From: Solirubrobacterales bacterium
Lineage (GTDB): Bacteria; Actinomycetota; Thermoleophilia; Solirubrobacterales; 70-9
Assembly (NCBI GenBank): GCA_023958085.1
Contig: JAMLGI010000004.1
Span: forward strand, 62,001 to 126,000
Direction of reading: 5' to 3'
DNA: 64,000 bases
Position numbers and translations under genes: made by a program. The first letter of the stretch is position 1. Each line of letters begins with the position of its first letter. Positions 8,915 through 62,460 of the stretch are shown one piece after another. Below the pieces are notes generated by a model that made no database searches, was not told the DNA's origin, and worked only from the letters and a program-made list of their open reading frames with translations.

Positions 8915-9936
8915 CAGACCGAGATCGTCTTGCCGGTCACCGCGACCACCGCCTCCAGCCGGTCCACCAGACCGCCGAACTCGGAGGTCGGCACCTGCTG
9001 GGCGGCATCACAGATCGCCTTCTCCGGCTGGTTGTGCACCTCGATGATGATCCCGTCGGCGCCGGAGGCGGCTGCCGCCAGTGCCATCGGTTCGACCCAG
9101 TCACGGCGACCGGGAGCATGGCTCGGATCGACGATCACCGGCAGATGGGTCTGCTCCTTCAGCGCCGGGACGGCAAGCAGGTCGAGGGTGAACCGGTAGG
9201 CGGTTTCGTAGGTGCGGATCCCGCGCTCGCACAGCATCACGTCCTCGTTTCCTTCCTTCAGCACGTACTCGGAGGCCATCAGCAGCTCCTCGACCGTCGC
9301 CGAGAGTCCCCGCTTCAGCAGCACCGGCTTGCCGGAACGGCCGATCTCGGAGAGCAGAGCGTAGTTCTGCATGTTGCGGGCCCCGACCTGGATCACGTCG
9401 GCCACCTCAACCACGTCCTCGAGATCACGCAGATCGAGCAGTTCGGTCACGATCGGCAGGCCGGTCCGCTCCCGGGCTTCGGCCAGCAGGCGAAGCCCCT
9501 CCCGGCCCAGGCCCTGGAAGCTGTAAGGCGAGGTGCGGGGCTTGTAGGCACCACCCCGGAGCATGGTCACGCCGGCCGCGGCCACCTCGTCGGCCGAGGC
9601 CAGCATCTGGTCCCGGCTTTCGACCGTGCAGGGTCCTGCCATCAGGGCGAAGTTGGTGCCGCCGACCTTGCGCCCTCCGATCTCGAGAATCGAGTCGGCA
9701 CCCTTGCGGAACTCCCGGGAAGCGAGCTTGTACGGTTTGGCTATCGGGACCAGGTGATCCACCCCGGGGGCACCTTCAAGCCCGAGTTCGGTGACCTTCT
9801 CCCGGTCCCCGATCGCCCCGATCAGGGTCAGGAGCTCACCCTTGGAAACGTGCGCGGAGCAGCCGACGCTTTCGACTCTCTCCACCACCTGGGCGATCTG
9901 ATCCTCGGTCGCCCCTTCTTTCATCACGATCATCAT
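8914..9936 (-). CDS. aroF: 3-deoxy-7-phosphoheptulonate synthase (DAHP synthase, type I)
   Basis: First committed step of the shikimate pathway (PEP plus erythrose-4-phosphate). An N-terminal ferredoxin-like/ACT-like regulatory domain fills about 1-70 ([14 protein letters not shown]). The barrel has GPCTVES at 101-107, [16 protein letters not shown] at 127-142 and [12 protein letters not shown]. This is the long form with an N-terminal regulatory domain, as in Thermotoga-type enzymes. The first two codons are both ATG, so the start could be 9936 or 9933. It leads the aroF-tyrA-aroA unit. Confidence 0.95.
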
Positions 9937-10304
9937 GCTCTTGTCTGCCTTTCCGTTACTGCCAGGACTTTACTTTCCGGGTCCGAATCACAGTTCGATG
10001 TCCCGTTCCGCGGTTGCCGTCGCCCGCCACCGAAAGGGTGATCGGGGGTACCGCGTTAACCGATACGGCGCCCGGCGGTTGTGGAGTTGCCTTCGCGGGA
10101 CAGCCCCGCGACACCGGACGGACGCCTAGACGGTTCGCCAATAGGGATAAAACGAAGCCGGCATGAGGCCGCGGCGGTCGCAACCTGTGACCGTTGAAGC
10201 AGAGGGGCGGCTGTTGATCTGCGGCTTCACTGGAACCCGGGTTGTATCAGGTGGGGGCTCCCGGCAAGGGTTCAGTCGGTCGAGGGGCGCGTGGCCGCGA
10301 CTCG
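9937..10304 (-). other. Intergenic region upstream of aroF, no gene seen
   Basis: About 370 bases lie between the amine oxidase and aroF, and should hold the aroF promoter. I see one short perfect hairpin at 10094-10110 (CGCGGG and CCCGCG arms, five-base loop) with no T-run after it. I recognise no T-box, tryptophan leader or conserved small ORF. Confidence 0.5.
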
Positions 10305-50195: not shown

Positions 50196-51884
50196 TCAGA
50201 ACGCCGGACCGCCGGCGGCCGGGTTGAGACCCTCGGCCTTGACGGTGGTCAGCCAGGCTTCGGCCTGACGGTTCCGTTCCGTCTCGGACCAGCCGAGTCG
50301 GTCCCCCATCACCCCGACAACCCCGGCCACCGATTCAGGGCTCGCCAGGTGGACTGCCGCGGTCAGCCCCAGCCTGGTTCGCCGAAGCAGCACATCGGCG
50401 ATCGTGACCGCCTGCTCCCGTTCGATCGCCACCGCGACTTCCGCCAGGAGGTCCGGAAGGCCGGGGACGATCGGGGATCCCAGCGCCGGCTCCGCCTCGA
50501 CCAGCTGAAGAACCCGGCGGGCGGTGTGGCCGTAACGAAAGGCGAGCTGTTCGGCAACCTCGGAACCGAGTTCCCCGGGGAGTTTCAGTGTGGCCGGATC
50601 GATCTCCATGCCAAGCGGAATCTCGGCGGTCTGGCAGCGGGCCATGCGGCCCGAGCGGTGGACGATCCGGTCGACCGTATCTTTGGCCATTCGCCGCCAG
50701 GTGGTCAGCTTGCCACCGGTGATGGTCAGCATCCCCGACGAGGTTTCGTACAGTTCCGCCTGCCGTGAGATGTCCACCGACTTGCGGGGATCTCCGGTCG
50801 AGATCAGCGGGCGGACCCCGGCGTAGGCCCCGACCACATCCGACTCGGTCAGTGACCTGCCGGTGAACTCGTTAACCGCCTCGAGCAGATAGGTGATGTC
50901 GTCCCCGGTCGGGGCGACCTCCTCGATCCCGCCGTCGTGGTCGACGTCGGTGGTCCCGACCAGGGTCCGTCCGTACCAGGGCAGGGCGAAGATCCGGCGC
51001 CCCTCACCGGCCGGGATCACCGCCGCCGCCCGGCCCATGTCAAAGACTTCCGGGTCAAAAAGCAGGTGGGTTCCCCGGCTCGGGGCGATCCGCGGGATGT
51101 CCTCCTCGTGCTCGATCTCCCCCGGCCGGATCCGGTCGGCCCAGACCCCGGTCGCGTTGACCACGTTGTCGGCACCGACCCTCACGGTCTCCCCGCCGAG
51201 GGCATCGGTGAACTCGACCCCGTCGGCCCTGCCGTCCTTCACGGTCACCTTCGAGACCGGGGCGTAGTTCAGACTCACCGTGCCGAAACGCTCCGCCTCC
51301 CCGAGCACGGTCAACACCAGCCGGACGTCGTCGGTCTGGCAGTCGTAGAAGAGATACGCCGACTCCGGGTCACGATCGGCCAGCGAGGGCACCAGCTCGA
51401 GGATCTCGTCACGGTCGATCGTGCGATGCCGGTCCGGTGACCAGGACTCCTCCGCCTCGGCCGGACGCCGTCGCCACCGTGCCGCGCGTTTCTGGCGTCC
51501 GGTCCGCACCCCGGCCAGCACGTCGTAGGCGTTCAGGCCCAGCCCGACAAAGCGATCCGGTTTCTCGTCCTTGAAGCTGGGAACGAGAAAGGGGGTCGGA
51601 TAGACCAGATGCGGGGCCAGCTCGACCATCAACTGGCGTTCGAGCAGGGCCTCCCGGACCAGGCCGAGGTCGAAGTTCTCGAGATAGCGAAGTCCGCCGT
51701 GGACCATTTTCGAGGATCGGGAAGAGGTCCCTATCGCGTAGTCCCTGGCTTCCAGCAGGGCCACCGAGTAGCCGCGGGATGCGGCATCGAGCGCAACTCC
51801 GGCCCCGGTGATTCCCCCTCCGATCACAACCACCTCGAACTGTTTGCCGGCGATGTTCTCGAGCGCTTCGGTCCGGTTCAGCAT
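50196..51884 (-). CDS. glpD: FAD-dependent glycerol-3-phosphate dehydrogenase
   Basis: Membrane-associated oxidation of glycerol-3-phosphate to dihydroxyacetone phosphate. FEVVVIGGGITGAGVALDAA near residues 18-37 is the FAD site; SSRSSKMVHGGLRYLE and TTDVDHDGGIEEVAPT are typical, and the C-terminal helical domain (about 420-540) is present. 562 residues is normal. The start is only ten bases after the ECF S-component gene, so it may share the riboswitch-controlled transcript although its metabolism is unrelated. Confidence 0.94.
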   Translation of the reverse strand: MLNRTEALENIAGKQFEVVVIGGGITGAGVALDAASRGYSVALLEARDYAIGTSSRSSKMVHGGLRYLENFDLGLVREALLERQLMVELAPHLVYPTPFLVPSFKDEKPDRFVGLGLNAYDVLAGVRTGRQKRAARWRRRPAEAEESWSPDRHRTIDRDEILELVPSLADRDPESAYLFYDCQTDDVRLVLTVLGEAERFGTVSLNYAPVSKVTVKDGRADGVEFTDALGGETVRVGADNVVNATGVWADRIRPGEIEHEEDIPRIAPSRGTHLLFDPEVFDMGRAAAVIPAGEGRRIFALPWYGRTLVGTTDVDHDGGIEEVAPTGDDITYLLEAVNEFTGRSLTESDVVGAYAGVRPLISTGDPRKSVDISRQAELYETSSGMLTITGGKLTTWRRMAKDTVDRIVHRSGRMARCQTAEIPLGMEIDPATLKLPGELGSEVAEQLAFRYGHTARRVLQLVEAEPALGSPIVPGLPDLLAEVAVAIEREQAVTIADVLLRRTRLGLTAAVHLASPESVAGVVGVMGDRLGWSETERNRQAEAWLTTVKAEGLNPAAGGPAF

Positions 51885-51894
51885 CGACTTCCTT

Positions 51895-53892
51895 CTACCA
51901 CCGGAAGCGGCGGGCCAACCAGATGGTGCCGCCGCAGAGCCCGCCCGACACAGCCAGGCAGATCAGGATCGCGATCCACGGTGACGGGGTCGGCCCGGGA
52001 GCCGAAGCGGCCAGCACTGCCTCGCTGGGCACGACCGGGGTGACGGTCGGCAGCGGCGTGGAGGACTCACCGGTGGCGGGTGGCACGGTCGTGCTGCCCG
52101 AGGATCCCGAACCGGATGCGGAACCGGATCCACCCGAACCGGAACCGCCCGATCCGGTACCGCCCGATTTTCCGGATCCACCCGAACCGGATCCACCCGA
52201 AGAAGACGAGGGTGTGGAGCCGGCTGCCGACCCGGGGCTGTAGGTCGGGGTCGAGCTTCCGGTCGAGCTGCCGGTCGAGCTGCCTCCGGAGCCGGAATCG
52301 GTTTCCGACTGCTTCGCTTTCACGAAGTCGTTGCAGTTGCGCGGCTTGCCGTAGAAGTACGGCACCTGGGCCAGGGAGGGCAGCGCCTGCGCGGTCACCC
52401 AGATCGAATCCATCTGACCGGAGTCCCCCTTTCGGCGGATGTATCCCTTCGGGGTCTGCATCGATCTCAGATAGTCGAGCGCGGTGAACCCGCCGTCTCT
52501 CATCGCCTTGACGTCGTACCGGGCACCCAGCATCCCCTGAATCGCCAAGGCGGTGGACTGGCTGTTGGTGCCGCCGCTGGCCCCGTTGTCGAAACCGCCG
52601 TTCTTGTGCTGCTGGCGCTGGAGGTATCCGATTCCCTTGCCGGCGAAACCCTTCCCGCCGACCACCAGCATCACGGCCCCGGTTGTGTCCGGGTTGCTCG
52701 GCGCCTTCCGGCTGATCCCCCATCCGCCATTTTTGTGCTGGGACTTGCACAGCCACCGTTCGGTGTCGGCCACAGTCGAACGTTTCTCACCGACCGACCG
52801 CAGCGCCATGACCGCCCAGGCTGCCGTGTTGATCCGGCCGCCGGCGGTGCCGTTGCGTTTGATCTGCCGCACCAGCTTACGGACCAGATTGGTGCCGCCC
52901 AGCGAACGTGGATCCCGGTTCGCAGCCTTCATCGCCAGCACCGTCTTCGCCAGGTTGCCGATCGCCTCGGCCGGTGGCGAGACGTTGTAGATCCCGTTCC
53001 TGTTTCTCTTCAGCCACTGAATCGGGTCGGAGCCACCGTTGACCTTCACCGTGTCGATGCTGCGGCCGAGCCGTCCCAGGGCGAGAATCGAGTCCGTGGT
53101 CATCCCGAGGCTGGAGTCCATCCCGGGCTCGCGACCGAATCCGCCGTCCGGGTTCACCTGCTTGGCCAGCCACTGCTTGCCGTTGGTAACCGGGCTGGCC
53201 GCGGACGCGTCCCGGGGTGTCGCAAGGCCACCCAGGGCCAGCCCGGCCAGGGAGAAAACCACCAGAGTGGGTCCGGCCGCGCCGGCTGCCCGGCGCCACT
53301 CGAACCGTTCCCGGAACCGGGTGAGCGCGGCGATCATCGCCGGTCCGGCGACCAGGGCGAAGATGATGTTGCCGGTCATGTGTGCGAGATCGAAGGGAAT
53401 CGCTCTTACCTCAAGTGCAAGGTATCGGGCGAGGGACATCTCGCCACCGTAGGAAACCATTGTCTGCAGGTTCATCAGCGCCCCGAAGGCGATACCGACC
53501 AGACCGCAGACCGCGGCCAGCGTAAAGCGTCCGGCCCGGCCCGAGGTCAATTTCCAGAGTGCTGCACCGGCGATCCCGGCCAGCCCCCAACCCAGCATCT
53601 GCCAAGGGGTCCAGGCGCCCTGCCCCAGCCAGAAGTTCGAAACCAGTCCGCTGATCGCCCCGACCGCGAAACCGGCCGCCGGACCGAGCACGTAACCGGC
53701 GATGAGCACGATGTCGGTCGTCGCGACCACATTCGGAATCGGAGCGAGGACGATCCGTCCGGCGACCGCCAGCGCCGCCAGTACCGCCACCAGGGCGACG
53801 GTCCGGGAGGGTGGACGTGAGCGTTCGTACCAGATCATCCCGCCGCCGAGGGCGAGGGTGAGCAGGAGGAAGCTGGTGATCTGCCAGCTCAC
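51895..53892 (-). CDS. ECF transporter S-component fused to a transcobalamin-like alpha/alpha toroid
   Basis: 665 residues from a GTG at 53892 (GGAG ten bases upstream; GTGA overlap with the ATPase stop). Residues 5-22 are a membrane helix; about 30-195 form an ECF S-component-like region (PIPNVVATTDIVLIAGYVLG, SNFWLGQGAWTPWQMLGWG). A further helix (207-224) ends in a signal-peptidase-like ATPRDASAAS. Residues about 235-515 are a prenyltransferase/squalene-cyclase-type toroid with repeats NPDGGFG, KNGGWG and KNGGFD. A Ser/Gly/Thr-rich linker (530-625) leads to a last helix (636-657) with a basic RRFRW tail. The toroid should sit outside the cell, tethered at both ends. With the riboswitch, cobalamin or a corrinoid is the likely ligand. 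Confidence 0.85.
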   Translation of the reverse strand: MSWQITSFLLLTLALGGGMIWYERSRPPSRTVALVAVLAALAVAGRIVLAPIPNVVATTDIVLIAGYVLGPAAGFAVGAISGLVSNFWLGQGAWTPWQMLGWGLAGIAGAALWKLTSGRAGRFTLAAVCGLVGIAFGALMNLQTMVSYGGEMSLARYLALEVRAIPFDLAHMTGNIIFALVAGPAMIAALTRFRERFEWRRAAGAAGPTLVVFSLAGLALGGLATPRDASAASPVTNGKQWLAKQVNPDGGFGREPGMDSSLGMTTDSILALGRLGRSIDTVKVNGGSDPIQWLKRNRNGIYNVSPPAEAIGNLAKTVLAMKAANRDPRSLGGTNLVRKLVRQIKRNGTAGGRINTAAWAVMALRSVGEKRSTVADTERWLCKSQHKNGGWGISRKAPSNPDTTGAVMLVVGGKGFAGKGIGYLQRQQHKNGGFDNGASGGTNSQSTALAIQGMLGARYDVKAMRDGGFTALDYLRSMQTPKGYIRRKGDSGQMDSIWVTAQALPSLAQVPYFYGKPRNCNDFVKAKQSETDSGSGGSSTGSSTGSSTPTYSPGSAAGSTPSSSSGGSGSGGSGKSGGTGSGGSGSGGSGSASGSGSSGSTTVPPATGESSTPLPTVTPVVPSEAVLAASAPGPTPSPWIAILICLAVSGGLCGGTIWLARRFRW

Positions 53893-55577
53893 GGGGATCG
53901 ATCTCCGGCTTCGCCTCGGAGCCACTCGATTCCGTCCTCGACCGTGATCACGCCGGGGCGATCGAGGGTCCGGGCGGTTTCGGTGGCGAAGTACCACCCG
54001 CCCGAGAGGATCAGTCCGGTTGGTGCGTCGGCGATCAGCACCCCGTCCCCCAGCAGGATCACCCGGTCGGCGAAGCTGGCGGCGAACTCGACGTCGTGGG
54101 TGGCGATCAGAACGGCCGCCCCGCGGCCGGCGAGGTCCGAGCCGAGGTCGGCCAGGCTCCGTTTCAGGGAACTGTCCATGCCACGGGTGGGTTCGTCCAG
54201 GGCGACCAGCCCCGGCAGCGTCTCCCCCTTCATCCGGCCGGCGAGGGTGATCGCGAGGGCCAGCCGCTGACGTTCCCCGCCGGAAAGATCCCGGGGGTCC
54301 GCGGAGAGATCGATCGAAAGTGATACCGCGTCGAGCGCAGCCTTCCCGTCCGGGCCCGAAAACTCGTCTTCGACCCGATCCCGGACCAGAAAGTCCCCCG
54401 GGTTCTGGGTCAGGAGCGCCATCTCACCGGGGGTCTCGATCCGGCCCTTCACCGGTTCGATCAGGCCGGCGGCGGCCCTGAGCAGAGTGGATTTTCCGGC
54501 CCCGTTTCGCCCCATCAGAGCCACCCGTTCACCCGGCTCGATTCGCAGGTTGATTCCCCGGAGGACGTCCACCTGTCCTTCACCCAGGTCCAACTCCACC
54601 CAGAGCGAGTCTGCTGAAAGTGCAGACTCCGGTCCTGCCCTCCGGCCACGCCGACCCTTCCGGCCGACCGGTGCTGGCGCTTCGCCGAACGAGTGGTGAC
54701 CGGCCTCGTCCCCGGCCAGGCCGAGTTCATGCAGCCGCATTTTCGCTTCCCGCACATCGACCGGGGGCGGAGCCAGCCCGGCCCCGGTAAAGAGGCGGGC
54801 CAGCGGGGTCGAGAACCCGGGGCCGGACGCTTCGGCAAACCCGAGGAACCCGCGTGGCGATCCATCGAACCCGATCCGGCCGTCCATCATCGCCACAACC
54901 CGGTCGCTGATCGGCAGGCAGCGTTCGATCCGGTGTTCGGCCACGATCACCGCCACCCCCCACTCCCGGTTCAGCCGTCGCAACAGCCACAGCAGCTCGT
55001 CCCCGGCCACCGGATCGAGCTGCGAGGTCGGTTCGTCGAGCAGGACCAGCGGCGGGCGGGTGACCAGCGCGACCGCGAGCGCCACCCGCTGGGTCTCGCC
55101 GCCGGACAGATCGTTCACCGACCGGTCGAGCAGGTGGCCGATGTTCAGGGCCAGAGCCACCTCCTCCACCGCCCGGGCCCGGACCGCCGGATGGATCCCG
55201 CGGAACTCGAGCGGCAGGTCGAGTTCCGCCGCCACCGTGGTCGAAACGATCTGGGTTTCCGGGTCCTGGGCGACGTAGCCGACGGATGCCGCCAGTTCAC
55301 CGGGCCCGGTCTCGAGCATGTCCCGACCGTCGACCGTGACCCGGCCGGAGATCGTACCCCCGAAATAGTGCGGCACCAGACCACTGGCGACCCTGAGCAG
55401 CGAGGTCTTGCCGGAGCCGGATTCTCCTGCCAGAAGCAGAAACTCGCCCGGGTTGACAGCCAGATTCACGTTGTCCAGGGTCGGTCTGCCGGCCTGGTTG
55501 TAGGTGAACCCGAGGTCACCGATCTCCAACACCGGGGCACTCGACCGGGGGGTCGAGTCGCGGTCAGCGGGCCGCAC
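53889..55577 (-). CDS. Fused double ATPase of an ECF transporter (EcfA-EcfA')
   Basis: Energy-coupling module with two ABC ATPase domains in one chain, 562 residues. Domain 1: GESGSGKTS, a Q-loop GYVAQDPETQI, signature LSGGETQRVALA, Walker B VLLDEPTSQLD. Domain 2: GRNGAGKST, LLTQNPGDFL, LSGGERQRLALA, LVALDEPTRGMD. The GTG at 55577 is supported by an AAGGGGGA site seven bases upstream and overlaps ecfT by 14 bases; a longer frame exists but overlaps ecfT far more. It should drive transport with EcfT and the downstream S-component. Confidence 0.93.
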   Translation of the reverse strand: MRPADRDSTPRSSAPVLEIGDLGFTYNQAGRPTLDNVNLAVNPGEFLLLAGESGSGKTSLLRVASGLVPHYFGGTISGRVTVDGRDMLETGPGELAASVGYVAQDPETQIVSTTVAAELDLPLEFRGIHPAVRARAVEEVALALNIGHLLDRSVNDLSGGETQRVALAVALVTRPPLVLLDEPTSQLDPVAGDELLWLLRRLNREWGVAVIVAEHRIERCLPISDRVVAMMDGRIGFDGSPRGFLGFAEASGPGFSTPLARLFTGAGLAPPPVDVREAKMRLHELGLAGDEAGHHSFGEAPAPVGRKGRRGRRAGPESALSADSLWVELDLGEGQVDVLRGINLRIEPGERVALMGRNGAGKSTLLRAAAGLIEPVKGRIETPGEMALLTQNPGDFLVRDRVEDEFSGPDGKAALDAVSLSIDLSADPRDLSGGERQRLALAITLAGRMKGETLPGLVALDEPTRGMDSSLKRSLADLGSDLAGRGAAVLIATHDVEFAASFADRVILLGDGVLIADAPTGLILSGGWYFATETARTLDRPGVITVEDGIEWLRGEAGDRSP

Positions 55578-56451
55578 GGGACCGTCCCCCCTTCGCCCGG
55601 GCGGCCAGCCCGGCGGCAGCGAAAGCGACTGCCGACCCGATCGAGAAAGCATCCGGCGACCAGACGACGGCCGGATACGCGTCGAGGCCCCCGACCGCGC
55701 TGATCAACAGCCCCAGGGCGATCACCGCCAGCAGAGTTCCGGTGAGCACAAGCCGCCGGTCGTGGCGGGAGGGAACCGGGGCCGCCCTTCCCGCCGGACG
55801 GTCGAGACCGTATCCGCGCAGCTCCAGCGTGGCAGCCACATCCACCGCCCGGTCAAGCGATCCCGCCAGCAGGCGGTTCGCCATCGCCGCCCGGCCGACC
55901 GGCCGGGCCCCGGGTCCACGCAGACGGGCGGCCTCACCGAGGCGGGCCAGGTCGGCGGAAGCGAGCGGCACCAGCCGGGAAACCAGAGTGGCAGTCAGCG
56001 CCGACCGGTGGGCGATACCCCGGGCAGCCCGCAGGATCCGGTCGGGATCGACACAGGCGGACCAGACCCCGATCACGATCATCGTCGCCATCACCCGCAG
56101 CCCGATCACGAGACCGGCCGCGATCGCCTCCAGGGTGACGTCGACCCGGCCAAGCAGAGGCCACTCACCGAGGCGAAGCAGGACCGTGGCACCCCGGCCG
56201 GTGGTCAGCGCGTTCACGACCACCATCGTGATCATCAGCAAGAGACCGAGCCGGAAGGAGAACCGGACCGCCCGCCCGGCCCCGCACGAGAATCCCGCGA
56301 TCGCCGCACCACACGCCACTCCGATCAGGACCAGCGGATCCGAGGAGAGGAACCCGACCAGCAGAAAAGCTCCGAGATAGACCGAAACCGCAGCCAGCGA
56401 AGCGGTCTGAAGCGGCTCCCGCCGCGGCACATATGCGAGCGGCGAGATCAT
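55564..56451 (-). CDS. ecfT: ECF transporter transmembrane protein EcfT
   Basis: 295-residue coupling protein with several helices (for example LAAVSVYLGAFLLVGFL, PLVLIGVACGAAIAGF, RLGLLLMITMVVVNAL) and two basic coupling motifs typical of EcfT, AARLRGPGARP and LELRGYGLDRP. The ATG at 56451 follows a strong GGAAGGAGG site and lies four bases after the DUF4430 lipoprotein stop. It connects the double ATPase to the S-component. Confidence 0.9.
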   Translation of the reverse strand: MISPLAYVPRREPLQTASLAAVSVYLGAFLLVGFLSSDPLVLIGVACGAAIAGFSCGAGRAVRFSFRLGLLLMITMVVVNALTTGRGATVLLRLGEWPLLGRVDVTLEAIAAGLVIGLRVMATMIVIGVWSACVDPDRILRAARGIAHRSALTATLVSRLVPLASADLARLGEAARLRGPGARPVGRAAMANRLLAGSLDRAVDVAATLELRGYGLDRPAGRAAPVPSRHDRRLVLTGTLLAVIALGLLISAVGGLDAYPAVVWSPDAFSIGSAVAFAAAGLAARAKGGRSRAAR

Positions 56452-56455
56452 CGAG

Positions 56456-57406
56456 TCAGCCGCCTCCTTCCGTCCAGGGCAGCGACCCGACCTTGTCGAC
56501 CACACCGACCGCCGCATACCGACGGGCGAGATCGCCACGATCCAGGATCCCGACAGCCCGTTCAACTCCGGCATCGCTGCCCCCGGTGAGGATCCAGACC
56601 GGCGGGGACTGACCGCGTCTGATCGCGGCAACCAGGCCGGCGTCGGGACCCAGGTCCACAGCCGGACGGGCGTTCCGGTCCAGCCCGATCAGCCGGTCTT
56701 CCTCGAAACGGGCAAACACCCCGCTGCGTGCCGGGCCGGCCGCCAGTTGGCGACCCTCCGCCCGATCAGCGATTTCCGACCACGGGCCGACCAGCACCCG
56801 GATCGCACTCTCCGGCAGGCCGGCGTTCGATGTACCGCCGCCGGCCGTCACCTCCAGGTCCGCCCCGTCCGATCGCAGCCGATCCGAGGCTTCCGTGCAT
56901 GTCCCGTGGTCGGTCAGACAGACGACCCCGGCCGACCAGCGGGTTCCGTCGTAGCCGGTGGTGAACGGTGCCGGGTAGACCCCGACCACCGCCCCTACCT
57001 GCATCGCGTCGGTCCAGTCCCGGTAGTCCCACCACACGGTGTCACCGTCCGCGAGGGGGTAGTCGGCCGAGCCGCGCTCCGCCACCACCCCGTTGACCGA
57101 GTAGAACCAGTCGGAGCTCCGACCCTCCCGGATGGTGCCCGAAAGGCCGTTCACCGACTGGACGAATCCGCCGCCGTAAGCGGTTTCAAGGTCTGTCGCC
57201 CGGTCCAGCAGGCCGAGCGCCGTGGAGGACTCGTTCACCGCGGTCGAGGGATCTTCGACGATCAACTCCCGACCGTAGTCCCGGGTGACGAGCAGGGCCG
57301 CCCTGCCGGTGTCTTCACCCGGTCCGAATCCGCAGCCGGACAGGACGGCGACCAGGATCGCAAGCATCCCGAGGGAGCATCCGACTCTGGCCGCCGTTTC
57401 CTTCAT
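56456..57406 (-). CDS. DUF4430 (transcobalamin C-terminal-like) lipoprotein
   Basis: 316 residues with a signal peptide ending in lipobox LSGC (Cys25), so it is probably anchored outside the membrane. Residues about 36-130 are a DUF4430 domain: LLVTRDYG, a helix TALGLLDRATD, GGGFVQSVNGL, DWFYSVNGVVAERGSADYPL and DGDTVWWDYRDW. This domain family corresponds to the C-terminal domain of animal transcobalamin and intrinsic factor. The remaining half (about 135-316) is unassigned (VGPWSEIADR, PPVWILTGGSDAGVERAVGI). Its place between the first DUF4430 gene and ecfT implies a corrinoid capture role; binding is inferred. Confidence 0.85.
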   Translation of the reverse strand: MKETAARVGCSLGMLAILVAVLSGCGFGPGEDTGRAALLVTRDYGRELIVEDPSTAVNESSTALGLLDRATDLETAYGGGFVQSVNGLSGTIREGRSSDWFYSVNGVVAERGSADYPLADGDTVWWDYRDWTDAMQVGAVVGVYPAPFTTGYDGTRWSAGVVCLTDHGTCTEASDRLRSDGADLEVTAGGGTSNAGLPESAIRVLVGPWSEIADRAEGRQLAAGPARSGVFARFEEDRLIGLDRNARPAVDLGPDAGLVAAIRRGQSPPVWILTGGSDAGVERAVGILDRGDLARRYAAVGVVDKVGSLPWTEGGG

Positions 57407-57425
57407 CCGGTTGTGAGTCCGGCGA

Positions 57426-58157
57426 TCAACGGATTCTGATCAGCGCCCGGTTGGAGGGGATCAGTCCTGCCCTGCGGGCGATCGTCCTGACCTGACGCCT
57501 CACCTTGATCCAGGTGTAGCCGTTGGCATTGGTCCGCCTGGTCGCGCCCATGACCTTTGCGCCCTTGACCGGAGCACGTTTGCCCGCGGTGTTGTAGGCG
57601 AACACCCGAACCCGGACCTTCTTGCCCTTCTTCACGCGGGCCGGGGCCCTGAGGTAAAGCGCGTCCGGGCTGAGCGCTTCCCAGGAGCGGTTCAGGTACA
57701 GCAGGATCGAGTCCCCACTCTTCACGTCGAGGCCCTCGATTCCGACCTGGGCCGACGCGTAGTTGGTGCGGATCTCCCACCACTCCTTGTCCTTGGCGGT
57801 GATTCCGGCGAGTCCGCAGATCCCGAAGCCGTAGTCACCATCGGAGATCTTCAGCGGCCGCAGGGCCGCGTTGTTTGCCGCCGCGTCCGCGAGCAGATTG
57901 ATCGCCTTGGCGCCCTCGATCGTGCGGGCCGGACCGGCACTGCCGCTGAGGCAGCCGGCGTCCGGCTTGATCGTGGCGGTGTCGGCGGTGGCCTCGCCGT
58001 CGAAAACGACCTTGCCCTGCCAGGTCACAACCCTCAGGTTGGCCTTGGCGCCGGCGGCCGAAGCGGCCGGTGCGGCCAGGAACGCCGCGACCAGGGCGAG
58101 CATGAGAGCAAACCCCAGCAGGATGCCCGGAGCGGGAGAAACGGTACGTCTAGTCAT
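57426..58157 (-). CDS. Secreted DUF4430 (transcobalamin C-terminal-like) protein
   Basis: 243 residues; the ATG at 58157 follows an AAAGGA site and ends the riboswitch leader. The signal peptide ends in APAASAAGA (about 36), with no lipobox. Residues 40-165 match DUF4430: LRVVTWQGKVVFDGEAT, AKAINLLADAA, YGFGICGLAGI, EWWEIRTNYASAQVGIE and SGDSILLYLNRSW. A C-terminal Ig-like domain (about 170-243: APARVKKGKKVRVRVFAYNTAG) is rich in Arg and Lys. It is the first gene of the cobalamin-responsive operon, 19 bases before the lipoprotein. Confidence 0.85.
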   Translation of the reverse strand: MTRRTVSPAPGILLGFALMLALVAAFLAAPAASAAGAKANLRVVTWQGKVVFDGEATADTATIKPDAGCLSGSAGPARTIEGAKAINLLADAAANNAALRPLKISDGDYGFGICGLAGITAKDKEWWEIRTNYASAQVGIEGLDVKSGDSILLYLNRSWEALSPDALYLRAPARVKKGKKVRVRVFAYNTAGKRAPVKGAKVMGATRRTNANGYTWIKVRRQVRTIARRAGLIPSNRALIRIR

Positions 58158-58225
58158 CTGTGTCCTTTTGCCGTGCGGCCTGTTCGCGTGGCCGCGGTTT
58201 GTCGGGACGTCCCTTGCAGGGACGC

Positions 58226-58386
58226 GAAGTCGGCAGGTCTTCGGACTTGGACGTGTTCGTGGAGACAGCCTTCCCAGGTCGTGACCCAGTGGCTTTGAGC
58301 CTCCCGGTTCGTCCCTACCGCTGCGCGCCAGTTCCGGATTTCGACCGGATTCCCTGACCCCGCATCTCGGGGGTTGAACCGACTTC
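58226..58386 (-). ncRNA. Cobalamin riboswitch
   Basis: The minus-strand leader carries the class I/II core: GGGAATCCGGTCGAAATCCG, GCAGCGGTA, GCCACTGGG, CTGGGAAGGC and the B12 box AAGTCCGAAGACCTGCC. An 8-bp P1 helix closes it exactly (GAAGTCGG at 58226-58233 on the plus strand with CCGACTTC at 58379-58386). A hairpin follows at 58208-58224 (CGTCCC/GGGACG arms), about 40 bases before the ribosome site, without a T-run, so control is probably translational. High cobalamin is expected to switch the operon off. Confidence 0.92.
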
Positions 58387-58393
58387 ATCGCCG

Positions 58394-58399
58394 ATGATA
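58394..58399 (-). promoter_or_regulatory. Likely -10 box of the riboswitch operon
   Basis: TATCAT on the minus strand ends eight bases before the first base of the riboswitch P1 helix, so transcription would start at or just before the aptamer. The -35 region is weak (no TTGACA-like hexamer at 16-18 bases). Confidence 0.5.
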
Positions 58400-61278: not shown

Positions 61279-62460
61279 CTACCTCACCCGCACCCGCTTT
61301 CTGCCAGTTTTCGCCTTGGTGTGGGCCGCCGAGACCCTGAACTTGACGACCGTGCGCCGGTGGCGGCGAGCACTCCGCTTCATCCGCACCGGCACCTTCA
61401 CCCACCGGGTCCGGCCGGGCCAGAGGTTGGCGGCACGGCGGGTGTTCCTGCGCATCCACTTGCCGTAGGCCGTGACCCGGACCCGCTTGGCCACCGCGGT
61501 GCCGTTGTTGCTCACCCGAACGTAGAAGGTTCGCTTCTGGCCGCGCCGCATCTTCCACGGACCTTTGACCTTCACCCACTTCAGGTGAGGGTGCCCTGGC
61601 CGCCCGTAGCACCCTTCAGTCACCGGTGGTGCCGAAACGTTCGAGTCGGGGCTGGTGGGCCTGCCGGCATCGTCACGGGTGCCAAGCACAAAGTCGGCCT
61701 TCATCCTCCAGGTTCCGGTTGAGCATCTGGCCTCGACGTAGCTGCGGTCGCGTCCGACACTTCCGGGAACCGGCTTTCCGTCATACACCACAGGGCTGGT
61801 CGCCGGGATGTTGAGGCTGAACTGGCCGACCGCCGAGTCGAAGGTCAGGACCGGAATCGACATCGTCAGAGTCCCGTTCCGCTGAAGCACTCCGCTCATG
61901 TAGACACCGGCTCCGGTGCCCTTGGAGAACCCGTACACCTTGATCCTTGCGAGACCCGCCCTGGTCCGACCGCCGTTGAAGACAACCAGGACCGGGTCCT
62001 TCAGGTTCGGCCCGGAGGCCGAGTTGATTGCCGCCAGGTAGAGCTGTGCGCTGCCGTTGCCGAGCACCGCCTTCGGACAGCGGGCGATCGCGGTCTGTGG
62101 CGGCACCGAGAGATTCACCGGCGGCGGGCCGATCTGGTTGTCGGGACAGACCGGAAAGTTCCGTTTCGGCACGAACTTCATGTCGGTCGGGAAGTCAACC
62201 GTCACCCGTTTCATCGGCAGGATCTTCGGCGAAGCCGGAAACGGTGCCTTCACCTCGACCCCAAGGCTCAGGTTGGCTGCTTTCGGCAGTTGCCGGTAGA
62301 GCTTGCCCGAGCTGGCCTTCAGACTCATGCCGGCCGTGGCTGTCTCGTCGGCACCACGCGCAACCGGTGGCACGAGAGCCAGACTCACCCCCAAACCGAT
62401 CAGCGCGATCAGCGCGAGGACTGCGTTTCGGGGAAAGTGGACGAGTCGAGGGGAACTCAT
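61279..62460 (-). CDS. Secreted repeat-family protein of unknown function, copy 1
   Basis: 393 residues from an ATG at 62460 preceded by GGAAGGAG. The signal peptide (about 10-37) ends in PPVARGA. The body has a conserved beta-rich domain: FPVCPDNQIGPPPVNLSVPP with paired cysteines, LVVFNGGRTRAGLARIKVYG, SIPVLTFDSAVGQFSLNIPA, VPGSVGRDRSYVEARCSTGT. The C-terminal CARDB/DUF11-like module (VRVSNNGTAVAKRVRV, NLWPGRTRWVKVPVRM) ends in a very basic tail. It is about half identical by eye to the product at 62670. Probably extracellular and wall-associated; no function known. Confidence 0.82.
   Translation of the reverse strand: MSSPRLVHFPRNAVLALIALIGLGVSLALVPPVARGADETATAGMSLKASSGKLYRQLPKAANLSLGVEVKAPFPASPKILPMKRVTVDFPTDMKFVPKRNFPVCPDNQIGPPPVNLSVPPQTAIARCPKAVLGNGSAQLYLAAINSASGPNLKDPVLVVFNGGRTRAGLARIKVYGFSKGTGAGVYMSGVLQRNGTLTMSIPVLTFDSAVGQFSLNIPATSPVVYDGKPVPGSVGRDRSYVEARCSTGTWRMKADFVLGTRDDAGRPTSPDSNVSAPPVTEGCYGRPGHPHLKWVKVKGPWKMRRGQKRTFYVRVSNNGTAVAKRVRVTAYGKWMRRNTRRAANLWPGRTRWVKVPVRMKRSARRHRRTVVKFRVSAAHTKAKTGRKRVRVR

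Follow-up and report, generated by a model that had tools for sequence, protein, structure and literature searches.

SLBB domains of the transcobalamin-like DUF4430 clade were found fused to alpha/alpha toroids, and also as paired proteins, by Burroughs, Balaji, Iyer and Aravind (Burroughs et al., 2007; PMC1796856), who also described SLBB operons that include CbiO and CbiQ in bacteria without vitamin B12 synthesis, for which B12 scavenging was proposed. Vertebrate transcobalamins, too, have DUF4430 as their C-terminal domain (PMC4350170). An importer of the energy-coupling factor (ECF) type that has been experimentally shown to carry cobalamin and cobinamide is ECF-CbrT of Lactobacillus delbrueckii (PDB 6FNP; PMC5997447), whose S-component, CbrT, is a 182-residue chain that has no external domains and uses an ECF module shared with other S-components. 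Here we analyse a minus-strand operon in a 64,000-nucleotide stretch (the window; positions 62,001 to 126,000 of contig JAMLGI010000004.1) from a Solirubrobacterales bacterium (assembly GCA_023958085.1; 2.44 Mb in 31 contigs, completeness 95%, contamination 4.3%), and report that it is probably a dedicated (group I) CbrT-type ECF importer for cobalamin or other corrinoids, equipped with extracellular capture modules.

The operon runs, tightly packed, from a cobalamin riboswitch through two exported DUF4430 proteins (A and B), EcfT and a double EcfA to an S-component joined to an alpha/alpha toroid (S-toroid). The riboswitch, the only one of its class in the genome (58398-58215), matches RF00174 over its full length (model positions 1-189 of 189), with 90.5 bits against a gathering threshold of 31.5. 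Proteins A and B are the genome's sole DUF4430 proteins. The PF14478 domain, of the C-terminal type of the transcobalamin family, scores 54.6 bits in protein B (cut-off 23.8) and lies at the cut-off in protein A (22.0 bits, just under, by hmmscan; 25.2 bits in a six-frame search). The CbiQ-family EcfT reaches 26.1 bits against PF02361 (cut-off 25), scored on the longer open reading frame 56631-55564, and the EcfA chain matches PF00005 in two stretches (166.7 bits) and TIGR04520 (233 bits). The S-component scores 34.4 bits against PF07155 and the toroid 41.7 bits against PF00432, both over their cut-offs, so that S-component, EcfT and ATPase domains are all recognized in adjacent genes, as in group I ECF transporters. 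These scores bear out the first-pass annotation of the window, which had described a complete cobalamin riboswitch heading exactly this set of proteins and had proposed B12 or corrinoid uptake, with PF14478 among the profile searches suggested as checks.

The S-component is one pointer to the substrate. Its core matches CbrT (6FNP chain A) over 173 residues (phmmer E 1.7e-15; profile E 9.2e-23), with no match to any other structurally characterized S-component up to an E of 10; the homology covers the whole S-domain and, among these structures, is confined to CbrT. The first-pass annotation had suggested a capture route that differs from the stand-alone B12 S-components already known for ECF importers; as regards the S-domain, this does not survive the comparison. 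The genome encodes the B12-dependent enzymes MetH and two methylmalonyl-CoA mutases, yet no corrin-ring methylases were found in it; its sole TP-methylase is the 16S rRNA enzyme RsmI, and there is therefore no de novo synthesis of the corrin ring.

The association with B12 regulation extends well beyond the window. Of 61 genomes sampled from the order and surveyed with DUF4430 and riboswitch families as keys, 47 carried DUF4430, and 45 of these had a cobalamin riboswitch on the same strand and no more than 6 kb upstream (median gap 409 bp); in 35 of those 45 it was the only cobalamin riboswitch found. As for the exceptions, the region fetched from one genome (G027, locus L122) has DUF4430 and no ECF gene nearby, and in the other (G058) the match to the riboswitch falls at the beginning of another contig. 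In Clostridia, Coriobacteriia and Tumebacillus, genes for relatives of the S-component stand in operons of the same kind (DUF4430, toroid, DUF4430, EcfT, EcfA, S); of 19 such loci, seven had a cobalamin-class riboswitch immediately upstream according to Rfam, which detected no riboswitch of any other class. Other riboswitch types, which the first-pass annotation had named as grounds for abandoning the idea, did not appear among operons of the same type. B12 uptake is well supported because riboswitch linkage, related operons, a CbrT-like S-domain and B12-dependent enzymes without corrin synthesis all point to it.

How, then, does the locus compare with described systems? With the operons of Burroughs et al. 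(2007) it shares exported DUF4430 (SLBB) proteins, often two per operon, a toroid, ECF ATPase (CbiO) and EcfT (CbiQ) genes, a host without corrin synthesis and predicted B12 scavenging; the parts of that study consulted do not describe the fusion of toroid and S-component, the CbrT identity of the latter or systematic control by cobalamin riboswitches. The core idea of B12 scavenging by toroid, DUF4430 and ECF proteins, which the first-pass annotation had presented as new, was therefore already predicted in 2007 (PMC1796856). ECF-CbrT has homologous S-component, EcfT and EcfA subunits, whereas here the module is encoded alongside the S-component, which bears a toroid together with additional membrane helices. 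Intrinsic factor, transcobalamin and haptocorrin likewise combine the toroid fold with a DUF4430 domain, whereas here the two are on separate chains and the toroid lies nearer to squalene-hopene cyclases. BtuB/BtuFCD and the Bacteroides BtuG systems likewise capture B12, at the surface or in the periplasm, and then import it with ATP. Their capture and membrane proteins, however, have other folds than those found here. In Streptomyces, loci with the SCO2321 family membrane protein (NCBIfam NF053823) also encode a toroid upstream of EcfT, EcfA and S (L177, L178), but as a separate gene, with no DUF4430 detected and no riboswitch by Rfam; the S-toroid of the window scores 87 bits against NF053823 (cut-off 300). 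A literature search on SCO2321 and on fusions of S-components with prenyltransferases returned nothing relevant. The fusion of a CbrT-type S-component with a toroid, its conservation across the order and its near one-to-one link to the riboswitch are undescribed in the open-licence literature searched, an absence that is not proof of novelty; the covalent fusion, kept across an actinobacterial order with a tight riboswitch link, appears to be a new variant.

The AlphaFold model of S-toroid, built on a 25-sequence alignment (mean predicted local distance difference test score (pLDDT) 80.4), shows an N-terminal helix, a six-helix S-core (residues about 29-196 in the model), a hydrophobic helix, the toroid and, behind a Ser/Gly linker, a last membrane helix. 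The extra helix between S-core and toroid (residues 206-222) is preceded by a basic segment and is expected to take the chain to the outside. From the overall charge pattern, in which a basic segment after the S-core is followed by the extra helix, toroid, linker, last helix and a basic tail, we infer that the toroid is located outside. The modelled toroid has the alpha/alpha fold of the intrinsic factor, transcobalamin and haptocorrin family and superposes on the intrinsic factor-cobalamin complex 2PMV with a Z of 20.3 (root-mean-square deviation (rmsd) 3.0, 227 residues aligned, 18% identity).

Taken as a CbrT-type importer with capture modules, the operon could work as follows. Low B12 would lead the riboswitch to permit expression; secreted protein A, lipoprotein B and the S-tethered toroid would then form a surface trap for corrinoids, and the trapped corrinoid would be passed to the CbrT-like S-domain, from which EcfT and EcfA would spend ATP to import it for use by MetH and methylmalonyl-CoA mutase. 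Corrinoid binding by the toroid, by DUF4430 or by both, the hand-off and the 'off with B12' regulation are what we infer. Downstream of the aptamer, the leader RNA folded without significant structure (z -1.25), and we therefore make no claim on a terminator or ribosome-site mechanism. Also possible, although we would not quite call it probable, is a sandwich arrangement in which an intrinsic-factor-like toroid tethered to the S-component and the separate DUF4430 proteins close over the corrinoid and deliver it directly to the S-domain.

Toroids are deployed variously in bacteria: as genes of their own, joined to either end of DUF4430, or joined to the S-component. The latter arrangement is found in 26 of the 31 loci of the order with a recognizable S gene, and in two, both of one genus, the toroid is a separate gene. 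Anchoring varies too: Tumebacillus and a Clostridia bin have SLH domains on the toroid, Ruminococcus has dockerins and the window protein has membrane helices, all of which is consistent with surface display. In Ruminococcus, toroid proteins and toroid-DUF4430 proteins carry type I dockerins at their C-termini (L061:2134-4209, L043:3110-4246, L016:2934-4775), which suggests B12-capture proteins that may be docked on cellulosome- or amylosome-like scaffolds. Elsewhere in the phylum, cobalamin riboswitches stand at the toroid gene in L186 and ahead of a DUF4430-ECF-toroid operon in L185, and an adenosylcobalamin (AdoCbl) riboswitch at the toroid gene on the short contig of L183. L180, found by its toroid only and with no ECF genes detected, has glycine riboswitches instead, so the presence of a toroid alone is not diagnostic.

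Several observations weigh against corrinoid import with carrier-like capture modules. The best structural matches of the toroid model are squalene-hopene cyclases (Z 24.2), which are also closer by sequence, and against PF01122, the family of the animal cobalamin binders that the first-pass annotation had proposed as a profile check, the toroid scores 14.7 bits, under the cut-off of 25. DUF4430 alignments used as profiles against the PDB matched no solved transcobalamin, which is compatible with Pfam membership because the domain is short and divergent. In a low-confidence model (mean pLDDT 65) of a natural toroid-DUF4430 fusion (L026), both domains align with transcobalamin (7QBG, 8IXU; Z 15.9, 334-351 residues, about 21.7 A rmsd), and its domain packing is not reproduced, which at so low a model confidence is not a negative result; a mixed toroid and DUF4430 alignment, in which DUF4430-only rows spread across the toroid, was set aside. 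Three of the 31 loci of the order, all of another genus, keep an intact S-component with no recognizable toroid, and several other operons of the phylum with toroid, EcfT, EcfA and S have no detectable DUF4430 (L177, L178, L181, L182, L184, L186); neither half is therefore indispensable. Finally, about 25 kb beyond the window the genome encodes an ATP-binding cassette (ABC) importer of the FecBCD type (FecCD and ATPase genes at G000:C4:150130-153100, L159), nearest to heme or siderophore models, whose substrate could conceivably be B12.

Much of this could be accommodated if the operon were a CbrT-type corrinoid importer in which toroid and DUF4430 do not bind corrinoids, serving instead as scaffolds that hold or place the transporter at the cell wall, or binding polysaccharide or a partner protein. 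Such a role would suit the toroid-less operons, the DUF4430 profiles without a solved transcobalamin among their matches, the packing of the fusion model and the dockerin or SLH domains of toroids in other lineages; we nevertheless regard it as unlikely, since animal transcobalamins end in a DUF4430 domain (PMC4350170; PMC1796856) and the pairing of DUF4430 with a toroid, one-chain fusions included, recurs across phyla in B12-riboswitch operons. The resemblance of EcfT and EcfA to the cobalt proteins CbiQ and CbiO, and the heme ECF importers known in another genus (PMC7299338), raise the question of whether heme, another tetrapyrrole or cobalt is taken up under B12 regulation. This we hold to be improbable, given an S-domain that resembles CbrT and matched no other S-component; cobalt import was rejected, as no CbiM or CbiN domain was found in the five operon proteins and the genome has no corrin methylases with which to use the metal.

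The ranking of the cyclases invites a further possibility, that the toroid is an extracytoplasmic terpene-cyclase-like enzyme fused to a transporter by chance. DxDDT is the catalytic motif of these cyclases. A DxDDT stretch resembling it does occur in most operons of the order's other families, but the window and its whole family read NPDTT or DxDST-like sequences, the full motif being missing, and in B12-controlled operons the toroid has a B12-type S-component and DUF4430 as its fusion partners or genetic neighbours. A chance fusion of this kind seems to us very improbable, and import of corrinoids through a CbrT-type S-component with capture modules remains our preferred reading.

Table 1. 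Features of the corrinoid-uptake operon, in window coordinates.
Feature	Position	Strand	Details and evidence
Cobalamin riboswitch aptamer (RF00174), operon leader	58215..58398	-	cmscan 90.5 bits, E 4.4e-21
Protein A, secreted DUF4430 protein	57426..58157	-	243 aa from ATG 58157, preceded by AAAGGA; signal peptide; DUF4430 about 57821-57690; basic C-terminal region
Protein B, DUF4430 lipoprotein	56456..57406	-	316 aa, start 57406; lipobox LSGC; DUF4430 about 57226-57023
EcfT, transmembrane coupling subunit	55564..56451	-	295 aa, most likely from ATG 56451; PF02361; hydrophobic segments
Double EcfA, two ABC ATPase domains on one chain	53889..55652	-	start approximate; PF00005, TIGR04520
S-toroid (CbrT-type S-component and alpha/alpha toroid)	51895..53892	-	665 aa from GTG 53892; 6FNP, PF00432, AlphaFold
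S-component core, residues about 26-197	53302..53817	-	aligned to CbrT residues 10-181; model helices
Extra hydrophobic helix, residues 206-222	53227..53277	-	hydropathy, model helix
Alpha/alpha toroid, residues about 230-520	52333..53205	-	pLDDT mostly over 90
C-terminal membrane anchor, helix 638-662	51907..51981	-	model helix; disordered Ser/Gly linker 541-636 with low pLDDT

The GTG start of S-toroid overlaps the stop of EcfA and agrees with that of homologues (Table 1). The first-pass annotation ended the operon at the stop of S-toroid, which is correct for that gene; glpD (glycerol-3-phosphate dehydrogenase, window 50196-51884), however, starts only 10 bp further on the same strand. Many loci across the order have a glpD homologue downstream of S-toroid, at the shortest distance within the same genus, and glpD may be co-transcribed under the cobalamin riboswitch.

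Protein B is conserved across 26 loci of the order, including the approximately 180 residues after DUF4430 (its C-terminal half, window 56459-57022), with cysteines C163 and C170, a region for which Pfam gave no match. At the place expected for protein B, between toroid and EcfT, L186 (8920-9918) and L177 (about 9200-9960) encode a secreted, membrane-anchored protein that is possibly a very divergent SLBB domain; the L186 protein has no Pfam match.

Variation was also seen in the ECF module. At L015-L019, L022-L024, L043 and similar Ruminococcus and Clostridia loci, EcfA and a CbrT-like S-component appear to share a single reading frame of some 800-1050 aa (for example L043:5451-8603), a covalent ATPase-S fusion that would be odd where the mechanism has the S-component leaving the ECF module. 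Companilactobacillus and relatives (L028, L049, L069-L077) have EcfT-EcfA-S operons without a toroid, and several such loci have a short DUF4430-like reading frame (126-138 aa) close by on the other strand.

Recognizing in gut genomes the transporters of B12 and its precursors has been called an open problem (PMC6593275). Many B12-dependent bacteria have no recognizable B12 transporter, and this operon type, now tied to CbrT and cobalamin riboswitches in an actinobacterial order, Clostridia and Coriobacteriia, offers a route to their annotation. If toroid and DUF4430 do bind corrinoid, the animal B12 carriers would be linked to a working bacterial import machine, and S-toroid would provide a simple fusion protein in which capture and hand-off could be measured.

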